From Bacillota bacterium (GTDB lineage Bacteria; Bacillota; Limnochordia; DTU087; JAAYGB01), in NCBI GenBank assembly GCA_012727955.1, contig JAAYGB010000021.1, positions 1 through 64,000 on the forward strand: a stretch of 64,000 bases of DNA, in the 5' to 3' direction. The position numbers and the translations under genes are program-made. Numbering within the stretch: position 1 is the stretch's first letter; each line of letters begins with the position of its first letter. A model generated the notes under the pieces. That model saw nothing but the letters and a program-made list of their open reading frames with translations, was not told the origin of the DNA and made no database searches. Positions 51,008-55,620 of this stretch are shown here, piece by piece.

Positions 51008-52051
51008 GTGCCTCCGATTTTACGCATCAATCTTGCAGCAGTCGAAGCCAACGCTAGGGTGATCGTGGATTGGTTTGCTGCCTACGGGGTAGAAGTATAT
51101 GGGGTGACCAAGGCTGCTTTGGGCAATCCCAGGATCGGGTCGGCGATGTTAGCCGGTGGCTGCCAGGGTCTGGCAGACTCCCGCTGGGAAAATCTGCGGC
51201 GGTTGCGGGAAGCTGGAATCACCGCGCCATTGATGTTAATTCGTACCCCCGCCCTGTCGGAGGTAGAGGCGGTGGTGCGGTGGGCTGACCTTTCCGTCAA
51301 TACGGAGCCGGTGGTTCTAAAGGCCCTGGATCAAGCCGCGGGGAAAGCTCACACCCGGCACAGGATTATATTAATGGTAGAGGCCGGGGATCTCAGGGAA
51401 GGAAAGGAACTGGCCGAGCTCTTGGACCTGGTGGACCTGTGCCAGTCCCTTCCCAATTTAGAGTTAGCAGGCATCGGGTGCAACATGGGGTGTTTGTCGA
51501 CGTCAGGACCCTCAGCCACTAGTCAAGGGATTTTGCAGCAGGCGGTGGCGTTGGTGGAAGGGCGCCTGGAAAAGAAACTGGCCATTGTATCCGGCGGTAA
51601 CAGCGGATTACTGTACCGGGAAGGCCTGCTGACCTTGAGCGCGGCTGTTACCCAGGTGAGGGTGGGGGAGGCTTTGCTCTTGGGCAAGGATCCCGTGGAG
51701 GAGCAGTTCTTGCCTACCCTGCGCCAGGATGGCTTTGTGCTGGAGGCGGAGGTAATTGAGGTGGGGACCAAACAGAGCCCCGAGGGGGATGGGGCAGTGG
51801 GGCAAACCCAGGTGGTCTCGGCCCTGGGGCGACAGGACCTGGGAGCAGGGAGCTTGGTGGTTCCTGAGGATATGGTGCTCCTTGGGGTGTCTAGTGATCA
51901 TTTGGTCCTCCGCTGGATGGGAGGAGATGGAGCCAGCAGCCAACGGATGCCTCCCAGAGTAGGTGAGAGGGTGAAGTTTCTTCCCGATTATGAGGCCCTG
52001 GTGGGATTGATGACCTCACCCTTTGTGACAAAAACCTTTGTCAAGGCCTGA
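51008..52051 (+). CDS. PLP-dependent alanine/ornithine racemase-like enzyme
   Basis: A 347-aa fold-type III PLP enzyme with the alanine racemase N-terminal domain. The PLP lysine is in 'YGVTKAALGNPRIG' (about residue 34). 'LADSRWENLRRLREAGI', 'LMLIRTPALSEVEAVV' and 'LMVEAGDLREG' match the ornithine racemase/YhfX-type branch rather than cell-wall Alr. The substrate may be ornithine or another amino acid. The GTG start is 1 bp after the moxR stop, so expression is coupled to the MoxR cluster. Confidence 0.8.
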   Translation: MPPILRINLAAVEANARVIVDWFAAYGVEVYGVTKAALGNPRIGSAMLAGGCQGLADSRWENLRRLREAGITAPLMLIRTPALSEVEAVVRWADLSVNTEPVVLKALDQAAGKAHTRHRIILMVEAGDLREGKELAELLDLVDLCQSLPNLELAGIGCNMGCLSTSGPSATSQGILQQAVALVEGRLEKKLAIVSGGNSGLLYREGLLTLSAAVTQVRVGEALLLGKDPVEEQFLPTLRQDGFVLEAEVIEVGTKQSPEGDGAVGQTQVVSALGRQDLGAGSLVVPEDMVLLGVSSDHLVLRWMGGDGASSQRMPPRVGERVKFLPDYEALVGLMTSPFVTKTFVKA

Positions 52052-52145: not shown

Positions 52146-53585
52146 TTGAATACTGAACTCTGGCAAGGGTATTTGCAGCAGGCCTGTCAAGAAAATTTAA
52201 ACCTTCGCGTCTTTGCAGCCTTCAATACTAATGTTGACGTGGTGGCTCACATTACCAGTGAAAAGATCCAGCGATTGCTTCAAGACAATCCTGATATCGA
52301 TATGCAAGCTGTGCAAAATCGCAGTGTTGAAGACGTTGGGGTAATCCGTTCCAAGGAAGACTTCCTCGTGGTCCTCCGAGACATGATGCAAGAGGGCAAG
52401 AGCTTTCACATCGTCCTTGAGGGACGGGAGTTGATGAACTGGTTAGACAAGCAGTTTGCCGGCGAATCTGAGCGTATGGGCGGACAGGCGGGAATCATCG
52501 CCAACCAAATGGCTGCCCTGGGGGCAGAAGCCATCGCCTATACCGCTCTGCTGTCACCGAAGCAAAGCAGTCTCTTCGATGACCGGGTGAAAACTCCCCT
52601 GATCGATGACGGCTTTGGACTGGCTCCCATCCGGGAGGCGGCCCGACCCGAGGACGAGACGAAGATCAACTGGATCTTTGAGTATGGCAAGGGTATTGAG
52701 GTAGACTTTGGAGTTGCTAAGGTGGTCACTCCCCGGGCCAATCGAGTGATTGTGGCAACGCGACCGGCCGGTGCCGTGATGTCCTTCCAGGAACCTGTGG
52801 TAGAGTACTTACCGGAATTAGGTGCCTCCAGCGAAGTGGCCTTTATGGCTGGTTACCATTACGTTGACACCACCAATCCCGATGGCCGCAGCTACGAAGA
52901 ATTCATGCAGGACACCGTGGACCATCTGCGGGCGCTGAAGAGTAAGAACCCTGCCCTGAAGCTGCATTACGAATATGTACCGATGAAGTACGCGGAAATG
53001 GAACCGGAAACCTTGCTGCGGGTGGCCAGCGAGATCAAGAGCTTTGGCATCAATGAAAACGAAATTCGGCGAGTCTTGACGGAGTTTGGGTTTGAGGCCG
53101 AATCCCAGGCCATTGCCGAGGACGAACGGGCCTATTCCCTGTATCAGGGCGGCCTGCGTCTGCTGGAAAAGATGCAGGTGGAGCGGGTTCAGGTACATAA
53201 CCTCGGTTATTACGTGCTGTTGCTCAGGAAGGACTACCCCATTGCACCGGAGAAGGTCCGTCAAGCCTGTCTCTTTGCCTCTGCAGTGAACGCGATGAAG
53301 GCGCGGTATGGCGGCTATCCCGGTCCCAGTCAACTGGAGGAAGCCAAGGATATCCAGTTGTCGGATATTGGCTACACTCAACTAAAGGGCTTTGCCAAGG
53401 AAATGGCTGAAAAGCACGGACTGGATGCCCAACAGTTGATGGAAACCGGCTATGCCGTGATGGAGGACCATATCGTGATGGTGGTTCCTGCCCATGTGAT
53501 TCCGGATCCCGTCAGCACTGTAGGGATGGGGGACACCATTTCCTCTTCCTCCTATGCCATGGAGGTTCAACTGGGCAAGGAATAA
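52146..53585 (+). CDS. ADP-dependent sugar kinase, second paralogue
   Basis: A 479-aa ribokinase-fold kinase of the ADPGK/ADP-PFK family. Visible motifs are 'FNTNVDVVAHIT' near the N-terminus, 'RMGGQAGIIANQMAAL' (about 116), 'LHYEYVPMKYAEM' (metal-Glu region), 'VQVHNLGYYVLLL', and 'STVGMGDTISSSSYA' (GxGD, about 459). It is clearly diverged from the paralogue at 23697-25127, so the two may split the glucokinase and phosphofructokinase roles. Start is TTG with AGGAGGGTCG upstream. It stands just before the tandem T-box leader. Confidence 0.87.
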   Translation: MNTELWQGYLQQACQENLNLRVFAAFNTNVDVVAHITSEKIQRLLQDNPDIDMQAVQNRSVEDVGVIRSKEDFLVVLRDMMQEGKSFHIVLEGRELMNWLDKQFAGESERMGGQAGIIANQMAALGAEAIAYTALLSPKQSSLFDDRVKTPLIDDGFGLAPIREAARPEDETKINWIFEYGKGIEVDFGVAKVVTPRANRVIVATRPAGAVMSFQEPVVEYLPELGASSEVAFMAGYHYVDTTNPDGRSYEEFMQDTVDHLRALKSKNPALKLHYEYVPMKYAEMEPETLLRVASEIKSFGINENEIRRVLTEFGFEAESQAIAEDERAYSLYQGGLRLLEKMQVERVQVHNLGYYVLLLRKDYPIAPEKVRQACLFASAVNAMKARYGGYPGPSQLEEAKDIQLSDIGYTQLKGFAKEMAEKHGLDAQQLMETGYAVMEDHIVMVVPAHVIPDPVSTVGMGDTISSSSYAMEVQLGKE

Positions 53586-53610: not shown

Positions 53611-53640
53611 TTGACACTTCTGAAGTAGGTGTAGTATACT
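53611..53640 (+). promoter_or_regulatory. Sigma-70-type promoter for the tandem T-box transcript
   Basis: TTGACA (53611-53616), an 18-nt spacer, then TATACT (53635-53640). Transcription should start near 53647, just before the first T-box. Confidence 0.8.
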
Positions 53641-53654
53641 ATCAAAAATAGTTG

Positions 53655-53934
53655 GTATGCTAATCTAACAGAGCAAACGTGGCGTTGAACAGGAGAGTAC
53701 CAACTTCACTCCGTCCTCTAGAGAGTTGTCGGTGGGTGCAAGACAACGGCGATGAGTTGGGAAGGCCACCTGGGAGCCGGTGCCGATAGGCGATGTGCTG
53801 TAAGGTACCCGGAGAGCACACTCCGTTAACAAAGGGCAGTCGAGGAGACTGCATGAGGTTGCCTTTGCGAAAAGGTAACGAATTTGGGTGGTAACACGAG
53901 GCCTTTCGTCCCAAAGGGATGAAGGGCCTTTTTG
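53655..53934 (+). promoter_or_regulatory. T-box riboswitch 1, predicted alanine-specific
   Basis: A T-box leader senses uncharged tRNA. Stem I elements are AGGAGAGTA (about 53690-53698) and AGAGAGTTGTCGGTGGGTGC (from about 53719). The specifier loop reads GGAAGGCCACCTGGGAGC; aligned with the usual NNN-A-CCTGGGAG arrangement the codon is GCC (53765-53767), alanine. The T-box sequence TTGGGTGGTAACACGAG (53884-53900) offers UGGU to pair with the tRNA ACCA end. Its own terminator follows. It lies in series with a second T-box. Confidence 0.85.
53899..53934 (+). terminator. Terminator of T-box 1
   Basis: AGGCCTTTCGTCCC (53899-53912) pairs with GGGATGAAGGGCCT (53916-53929), then a T-run. It competes with the antiterminator that uses the T-box sequence. 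Confidence 0.88.
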
Positions 53935-53957
53935 TCTTTGGGAATTACCAATTTCAC

Positions 53958-54211
53958 AGCAAAAGCGTTGACGAAGCGAAGCAATGGTTTGGTGGGTTGC
54001 AGAGAGAAGCCGGTGGGTGCAAGGCTTTAATCCCCTTCATTGCGAGCCACTTCTGAGTTGGGCTGGTGCTTTCCCACCGGGAAAGCACGGGAAAACAGCC
54101 TCGGTTTGACACCGTTATCATCGCCAAGAGGGGCTTATCCCAACGGGGATAGGCAATCAGAGTGGTACCGCGGTCATGGCCGTCTCTGCAGGCGCAGAGG
54201 CGGTTTTTTTG
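53958..54211 (+). promoter_or_regulatory. T-box riboswitch 2, predicted alanine-specific
   Basis: A second complete T-box. Stem I shows AGAGAGAAGCCGGTGGGTGC (54001-54020). The specifier loop reads GCGAGCCACTTCTGAG, giving GCC (54046-54048), alanine, by the same alignment as T-box 1. The T-box sequence AGAGTGGTACCGCGG (54160-54174) precedes a terminator. It lies 24 bases after the first T-box terminator and directly upstream of an aminotransferase gene. Confidence 0.85.
54180..54211 (+). terminator. Terminator of T-box 2
   Basis: CCGTCTCTGC (54180-54189), loop AGGC, GCAGAGGCGG (54194-54203), then seven T. Confidence 0.9.
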
Positions 54212-54249
54212 TTAGCGATTTTACCTGGGTGATAAGGAGGCCGAATTTC

Positions 54250-55467
54250 ATGAACTATAACGAGTTTTGGGCGAAGCGAGCACAGGGTATGCGTTCATCG
54301 GCTATCCGGGATGCCTTTAGTGTTGCTGAAGAAAGTCAGGCAATCTCCTTTGCCGGGGGATTTCCTGCCAAAGAGACCTTCCCCGTGGAGTTAATTCAAG
54401 AGATTCACGCCAAAATGCTTCGGGAAGATAACTCCGCGGCCCTACAGTACGGGCCTACCGAGGGTCTGAAGGAACTCAGGTTGCTGATCGCAGAGCAGAT
54501 GCAGTCCGAGGGAGTGGACTGTGACTGGGAAAACATCCTGATTACCAGCGGCTCACAGCAGGGACTGGATCTGATCGCCAAGGTAATGGTGGATCCCGGT
54601 GATGTGGTGCTGGTGGAGATGCCCGGATATATCGGGGGGCTATCCGCGGTCAATAACTACGAGGCGGAGCTAGTTGGCATTCCCTTGGATGAAGAGGGGA
54701 TCCGCACCGATCTCTTGGAAAGTAAGCTGACGGAGCTGAGGATGCGGGGCCGACGGGTAAAGTTTGTCTATGTAGTTCCCAACTTCCATAATCCCACGGG
54801 AGCAACTTTGTCCCTATCCCGCCGGCAGGAACTGCTCCGGGTGGCGGAGGAATATAACCTGATCATCCTCGAGGATAATCCCTATGGACAGCTGAGATTT
54901 ACCGGGGAATCCCTGCCCCATCTCAAGGCCCTCGATGAAAACAATCGAGTGGTCTACTTGGGCTCCTTCTCCAAGGTATTTAGTCCCGGAGTTCGGGTTG
55001 GGTGGCTGGTAGGGGACAAGGAAGTGGTGAGAAAACTCACCATTGCCAAGCAGGGAACGGATCTGTGTTCCCCTTCCTACGGCCAGAAGCTGGTGGCTGA
55101 GGTACTGAAGGCCAAGGTTTTGCCAGAGCACATCGCATCGCTCCGGTCGGTGTACGCGGCCCGAAGGGATGCCATGCTAGAGGCTTTGGCTCGGTTCATG
55201 CCCCAGGGCTGTACTTGGACTCGGCCTGAGGGAGGTTTCTTCGTTTGGCTGCAGCTGCCTGCGGGCATCGACGCGCAAAGGATGTTACCCGCGGCCATCG
55301 AAGAGGGTGTGGCCTATGTCAGCGGTGGTCCCTTTCACGTCGATAACATCGGCCAGAATACCATTCGTCTTGCCTATTCCCAAGTAACCCCGGAGGAAAT
55401 CACTGAAGGAGTGAGGAGGCTGGCACGGGCAGTCAAAGGAGTACTCAAATTGCCTGTCAATTTCTAA
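54250..55467 (+). CDS. PLP-dependent aminotransferase under tandem T-box control
   Basis: A 405-aa fold-type I aminotransferase of the 2-aminoadipate/LysN-like branch (also the C-terminal domain of MocR proteins). It shows 'ISFAGGFPAKETFPVELIQE', 'ALQYGPTEGLKELR', 'ITSGSQQGLDLIAKVMVDPG', 'VVPNFHNPTGATLS', and the PLP lysine in 'YLGSFSKVFSPGVRVGW' (about residue 242). These enzymes have broad specificity. Because both T-boxes read as Ala, an alanine-forming (alanine-glyoxylate, alanine-2-oxoglutarate or valine-pyruvate) activity is suggested by inference. AAGGAGG precedes the ATG at 54250; a longer frame from 54040 runs through the T-box and is rejected. Confidence 0.9.
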   Translation: MNYNEFWAKRAQGMRSSAIRDAFSVAEESQAISFAGGFPAKETFPVELIQEIHAKMLREDNSAALQYGPTEGLKELRLLIAEQMQSEGVDCDWENILITSGSQQGLDLIAKVMVDPGDVVLVEMPGYIGGLSAVNNYEAELVGIPLDEEGIRTDLLESKLTELRMRGRRVKFVYVVPNFHNPTGATLSLSRRQELLRVAEEYNLIILEDNPYGQLRFTGESLPHLKALDENNRVVYLGSFSKVFSPGVRVGWLVGDKEVVRKLTIAKQGTDLCSPSYGQKLVAEVLKAKVLPEHIASLRSVYAARRDAMLEALARFMPQGCTWTRPEGGFFVWLQLPAGIDAQRMLPAAIEEGVAYVSGGPFHVDNIGQNTIRLAYSQVTPEEITEGVRRLARAVKGVLKLPVNF

Positions 55468-55501
55468 AGGGGTAGGAATGCCAGCGCAATTAGTAGAAAT
55501 G

Positions 55502-55541
55502 AAAGGAGTGCAGCCGGAAGATGGACTGCACTTCTTTTTTT
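55502..55541 (+). terminator. Terminator after the aminotransferase gene
   Basis: AAAGGAGTGCAG (55502-55513) pairs with CTGCACTTCTTT (55526-55537), in a stem of about 12 bp with one G-T pair, followed by further T. Confidence 0.85.
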
Positions 55542-55620
55542 GCTAGGACTGCCCCTGGTAAGATGCCTAGCCCTGCGGGATGTTATAGATCACGACGTCT
55601 TGTCTGCTTGGAGGAATTTA

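Follow-up and report, generated by a model that had tools for sequence, protein, structure and literature searches.

Two alanine-type T-boxes in series precede a conserved LysN/KAT-II-like aminotransferase gene in a member of the Bacillota

Within the window (the whole stretch of 64,000 nucleotides that was analysed), the locus described here consists of a promoter, two T-box riboswitches in series, each with its own terminator, a ribosome-binding site and a gene for a class I/II PLP aminotransferase (Table 1). Just upstream of the leader lie an ornithine/alanine racemase-like gene (51008-52051) and a gene of the ADP-dependent phosphofructokinase/glucokinase type (52146-53585), an enzyme type best known from archaea. 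Since the aminotransferase gene is followed by a hairpin and a T-run, the transcription unit is probably monocistronic.

Table 1. Features of the leader and the aminotransferase gene, in positions of the window
Feature	Position	Strand	Support
Sigma-70-type promoter TTGACA-N18-TATACT	53611-53640	+	Consensus match at 11/12 positions
Complete Ala-type T-box 1, from stem I to antiterminator	53676-53916	+	RF00230 104.9 bits, E 4.2e-22
Specifier codon GCC, box 1 (GAAG-GCC-A)	53765-53767	+	Invariant columns G90 C91 C92 in alignment A1; neighbours vary
T-box sequence UGGUAACACG, box 1	53889-53898	+	UGGU complementary to ACCA of tRNA-Ala; UGGUAAC without change in alignment A1
Intrinsic terminator 1 with T-run	53898-53935	+	-25.9 kcal/mol, z -7.0
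Complete Ala-type T-box 2; no AGUA/GAA S-turn in the specifier loop	53959-54190	+	RF00230 94.5 bits, E 2e-19
Specifier codon GCC, box 2 (GA-GCC-A)	54046-54048	+	Invariant columns G88 C89 C90 in alignment A2
T-box sequence UGGUACCGCG, box 2	54163-54172	+	Invariant in alignment A2
Intrinsic terminator 2 with T-run	54178-54210	+	-20.7 kcal/mol, z -5.1
Ribosome-binding site AAGGAGG	54234-54240	+	9 bases before ATG
LysN/KAT-II-like PLP aminotransferase of class I/II (405 aa), proposed to form alanine	54250-55467	+	PF00155 E 2.9e-46
Hairpin and T-run 3' of the gene, probable transcript end	55507-55541	+	Fold of 55501-55548 -21.2 kcal/mol, then TTCTTTTTTT

The initial annotation of this DNA had proposed the promoter and two full T-boxes with a terminator each, and the leader bears this out. 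The promoter is present at the place given; weaker promoter-like sites, matching the consensus at 9 of 12 positions, are expected by chance 1.4 times per shuffle of the region. A search of the whole window with the Rfam T-box covariance model (RF00230) at the gathering threshold returned exactly two matches, each spanning model positions 1-219 and each above the curated cut-off of 93 bits, and no further Rfam matches besides these. In the predicted folds, both antiterminators form two helices around a bulge of seven bases, UGGUAAC in box 1 and UGGUACC in box 2, and both compete with a terminator, so that two complete units of sensor and terminator stand ahead of one gene. The terminators were located, T-runs included, at 53898-53930 and 54178-54205. 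The boxes are only 63% identical to each other and both are conserved in other genomes, and we therefore reject a recent duplication or an assembly artefact as the origin of the pair.

The amino acid specificity of the boxes could not be taken from the Rfam model, which aligns the specifier region without naming a codon, and we therefore made three separate tests based on the specifier register, the discriminator base of the tRNA and conservation. Register was calibrated on the genome itself, which carries 14 T-boxes in total; the 12 besides the pair precede aminoacyl-tRNA synthetase genes, clearly so for 11 of them, while the gene downstream of the remaining one (L006, specifier GUC) is unassigned. 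The triplet that follows GAA(N) is UAC in the tyrS box, CUC in leuS, ACC in thrS, UUC in pheS, AAG in lysS, AUG in metS, UGG in trpS, UCC in serS and GGC in glyQ, and in both aminotransferase boxes this calibrated place is occupied by GCC followed by A, at exactly the coordinates proposed for the specifiers at the outset. The antiterminator bulges of the genome likewise follow the discriminator bases of its tRNAs, with U73 in tRNA-Gly and tRNA-Thr and G73 in tRNA-Ser facing UGGA in the glyQ and thrS boxes and UGGC in the serS box. The UGGU of both aminotransferase boxes matches A73, as found in tRNA-Ala(CGC) of the same genome and in tRNA-Ala(GGC) of a relative (G011). Finally, GCC is invariant among relatives while the flanking bases vary, both in an alignment of first boxes from nine genomes (A1) and in one of second boxes from ten genomes (A2). 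The alanine assignment of both boxes thus holds under all three tests, and no other codon fits either box. The tRNA that GCC and UGGU would fit is tRNA-Ala(GGC) with A73, as seen in G011; its gene was not found in the incomplete assembly under study, where tRNA-Ala(CGC) was the only alanine tRNA found. As genes for tRNA-Lys(UUU) and tRNA-Thr(UGU) were not seen there either, the gap probably lies in the assembly.

Analysis of the amino acid sequence placed the enzyme in the LysN/KAT-II-like branch of PF00155, both by the family profile (158.8 bits) and by full-length similarity to solved structures, of which the best matches were the archaeal PH1371-type and PH0207 enzymes (1x0m and PH0207 of Pyrococcus horikoshii, E about 1e-122), followed by LysN (1.5e-92). 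Those relatives that have been characterised favour aromatic amino acids, kynurenine or 2-aminoadipate as substrates (PMC9986279), the preference of LysN being taken from its title. The enzyme passed none of the alanine aminotransferase models, NF006230 giving 101.7 of the 534 bits required. No alanine dehydrogenase (TIGR00518) was found in the genome, and no other dedicated alanine transaminase was recognised among the class I/II enzymes examined. From the specificity of the T-boxes, helped by these two absences, we infer that its most likely reaction is the transfer of an amino group to pyruvate, by which it would replenish alanine.

Comparison with other genomes revealed the same pair ahead of the same gene in many relatives. 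Orthologues in the same order, with proteins 57-58% identical, are preceded by two T-boxes wherever enough of the upstream DNA is available (L016, L018-L023 and L025), and tandem T-boxes are also found in genomes of other families (L026, L027, L033, L155 and L163); in L166, two T-box cores were detected by pattern only and are unreported by Rfam. A tree built from 59 aminotransferases places the enzyme in a clade of 31 (SH-aLRT 95); two boxes are present in 15 of its members, a single box in another 15 and no box in the last, so that alanine T-boxes precede 30 of the 31. The sole exception is a divergent row from a Symbiobacterium MAG with coding sequence upstream. Outside the clade, 24 of 28 members lack a T-box, and none was seen upstream of 20 further homologues of 40-45% identity, within about 1.2 kb (0.4 kb only for one). 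Every box of the clade with a readable specifier reads GCC; where the script that extracted the specifiers had mis-placed a box, the specifier was read by eye. Two-sided changes were found at 31 of the 64 consensus pairs of box 1 and at 34 of the 66 of box 2. With the tandem present in 15 of the 31 clade members and such changes in about half of the pairs, the arrangement is, on this comparative evidence, kept by selection.

The two boxes are not interchangeable copies, as the specifier loop of second boxes is without the usual S-turn. Among the 15 first boxes, 10 were counted with GAA ahead of the specifier and at least 7 with AGUA on the opposite side, whereas both motifs were absent from all 15 second boxes; it should be noted that the count was automatic and that some boxes were mis-placed, making the figure for the first boxes an undercount. 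The two kinds of box may accordingly differ in their affinity for the tRNA. A tree of 47 boxes unites all 15 first boxes with four single boxes (support 95), and 12 of the 15 second boxes with three single boxes in another group (support 89). Since second boxes thus mostly separate from the first ones, the tandem looks old, and the tree suggests that either member was lost where a single box is left. This history is a suggestion, as three second boxes, among them that of the window, lie outside the second-box group and many forks are weakly supported.

We consider it likely, as an explanation of the locus as a whole, that two transcription-attenuating alanine T-boxes act in series to control an alanine-forming aminotransferase. 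Both boxes would read tRNA-Ala(GGC) through the GCC specifier and the UGGU antiterminator bulge. As long as tRNA-Ala is charged, RNA polymerase would stop at terminator 1 or terminator 2, and when uncharged tRNA-Ala accumulates, both leaders would switch to the antiterminator and allow the gene to be read through. As read-through would need uncharged tRNA-Ala on both leaders, the two boxes in series would constitute an AND gate with an output roughly equal to the product of two responses, and a sharper response than that of one box would be expected. The two boxes, their codons and terminators and their conservation with the gene can be read directly from the DNA, and it is on these features that the proposed tRNA binding, AND logic, steeper response and alanine formation are built. 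A wider version of this explanation is somewhat less likely than not: an entire aminotransferase branch in the Bacillota might be an unrecognised alanine-forming enzyme under tRNA-Ala control, with the alanine T-box placed on synthesis and not on alaS, and its ancestral form might be a pair of non-equivalent sensors, the first with and the second without the S-turn, that sets two thresholds of uncharged tRNA-Ala.

The most probable of the alternatives concerns the product of the enzyme. Both alanine T-boxes could be real while the enzyme mainly makes a different amino acid (aromatic, 2-aminoadipate or branched-chain) and alanine starvation serves as a proxy signal. The nearest characterised enzymes are indeed aromatic, kynurenine or 2-aminoadipate transaminases, and a more distant family member from Limosilactobacillus caecicola (39% identical; L128:2140-2500) has one T-box whose specifier loop, GAATCACC, reads AUC (Ile), indicating that the branches of the family are not uniform in T-box specificity. 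However, the specificity of a T-box normally fits the product or substrate of the gene that it controls, and the whole clade, which spans many families, retains GCC and UGGU, a constancy scarcely to be expected of a proxy signal; we regard this alternative as unlikely.

Less probable still is that one box regulates alone and that its partner is an orphaned or decaying leftover. In half of the clade a single box suffices, the S-turn motif is absent from the second boxes, and the distal part of stem I is disturbed in the first box of L025. Yet the specifier, the UGGU, the antiterminator and the terminator are kept by both boxes in all tandem genomes despite large divergence, compensatory changes affect about half of the pairs of each box, and both boxes are conserved with the same gene, which speaks against the degenerate or orphaned box that the initial annotation had named as a possible refutation. 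As to the reading of the codons, the letters GGCC in box 1 and AGCC in box 2 would permit frames one base earlier, namely glycine (GGC) in the first and serine (AGC) in the second. Either frame, in one or both boxes, is scarcely credible, as U73 of tRNA-Gly would need UGGA and G73 of tRNA-Ser would need UGGC, as in the glyQ and serS boxes of the same genome, whereas both boxes carry UGGU, and the base preceding GCC varies among relatives.

In their structure, the boxes resemble the transcriptional class of RF00230, as exemplified by tyrS of B. subtilis, with a stem I that holds the specifier loop, an AG bulge and a distal loop, a stem III, an antiterminator with a UGGN bulge and a competing intrinsic terminator. 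They differ from it in that box 2 is without the AGUA/GAA S-turn and box 1 has UGGUAAC for UGGUACC, and in principle they are the same. Serial T-boxes had been called rare at the outset; on the contrary, they are significantly enriched and often found ahead of trp, ilv/leu, thr and metNIQ genes, and the same survey of contiguous riboswitches proposed a digital, pseudo-cooperative behaviour for tandem T-boxes (PMC12452182). The pair shares with the tandem trp, ilv/leu and thr T-boxes of Bacillota two complete units of sensor and terminator, for which both ligands are proposed to be necessary; those tandems serve other amino acids and operons, and the main-text table of the survey holds no alanine or PF00155 case (PMC12452182).

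That alanine T-boxes usually sit before alaS agrees with the literature covered, whose alanine T-boxes control alaS, mostly with GCU as the specifier (PMC4695836, PMC7778990, PMC2494555). The alaS T-box has been studied experimentally and its UGGU pairs with the ACCA of tRNA-Ala (PMC4695836). The present boxes are like those of Clostridium acetobutylicum and B. subtilis described there in reading tRNA-Ala and in pairing UGGU with ACCA, but those control alanyl-tRNA synthetase through GCU, whereas here the gene is an aminotransferase, the codon is GCC and alaS is without a T-box. PH1371, PH0207, LysN and KAT-II belong to the same aminotransferase family with full-length similarity; those that have been characterised favour aromatic amino acids, kynurenine or 2-aminoadipate as donors, and T-box control of a member was not found in the literature covered. 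Nor was an alanine T-box before an aminotransferase found in the literature covered, to which the surveys by Vitreschak (2008) and Gutierrez-Preciado (2009) did not belong. The locus combines ordinary parts and an ordinary mechanism with a target that is widely conserved and apparently unreported, and its specifier codon is an uncommon one.

The alaS gene of the genome (contig C24) carries no T-box, and the pair is not located before an alanyl-tRNA synthetase gene. Among 21 relatives with aminotransferase boxes, none has a T-box on alaS (one with only 36 bases upstream), compared to 3 of 24 control genomes; mutual exclusion of alanine T-boxes on alaS and on the aminotransferase is thereby not established (Fisher p 0.23). 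Control by tRNA-Ala would here act on how alanine is made and not on its charging, and we propose a testable function, a route to alanine, for conserved and loosely annotated aminotransferases in many uncultured relatives. Furthermore, the conserved and unequal pair of sensors could constitute a natural system in which to ask what a second serial T-box adds.

The T-box regulon of the genome (L001-L014) comprises a set of aminoacyl-tRNA synthetases and one aminotransferase, and its lysS box uses AAG, the rarer specifier. In two relatives, the T-box that comes next 3' of the aminotransferase has the specifier CUC (Leu) (L027:532-839 and L030:3330-3688), and a leucine T-box gene therefore lies just downstream there. 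A SAM riboswitch is found 3' of an aminotransferase with a single T-box in another (L156:2965-3063). The leaders of L097 and L099, from the Actinomycetes MAGs CSMAG_2519 and CSMAG_679, are near-identical, and L097 is without most of stem I including the specifier but keeps antiterminator and terminator, reflecting either a real deletion or an assembly error.
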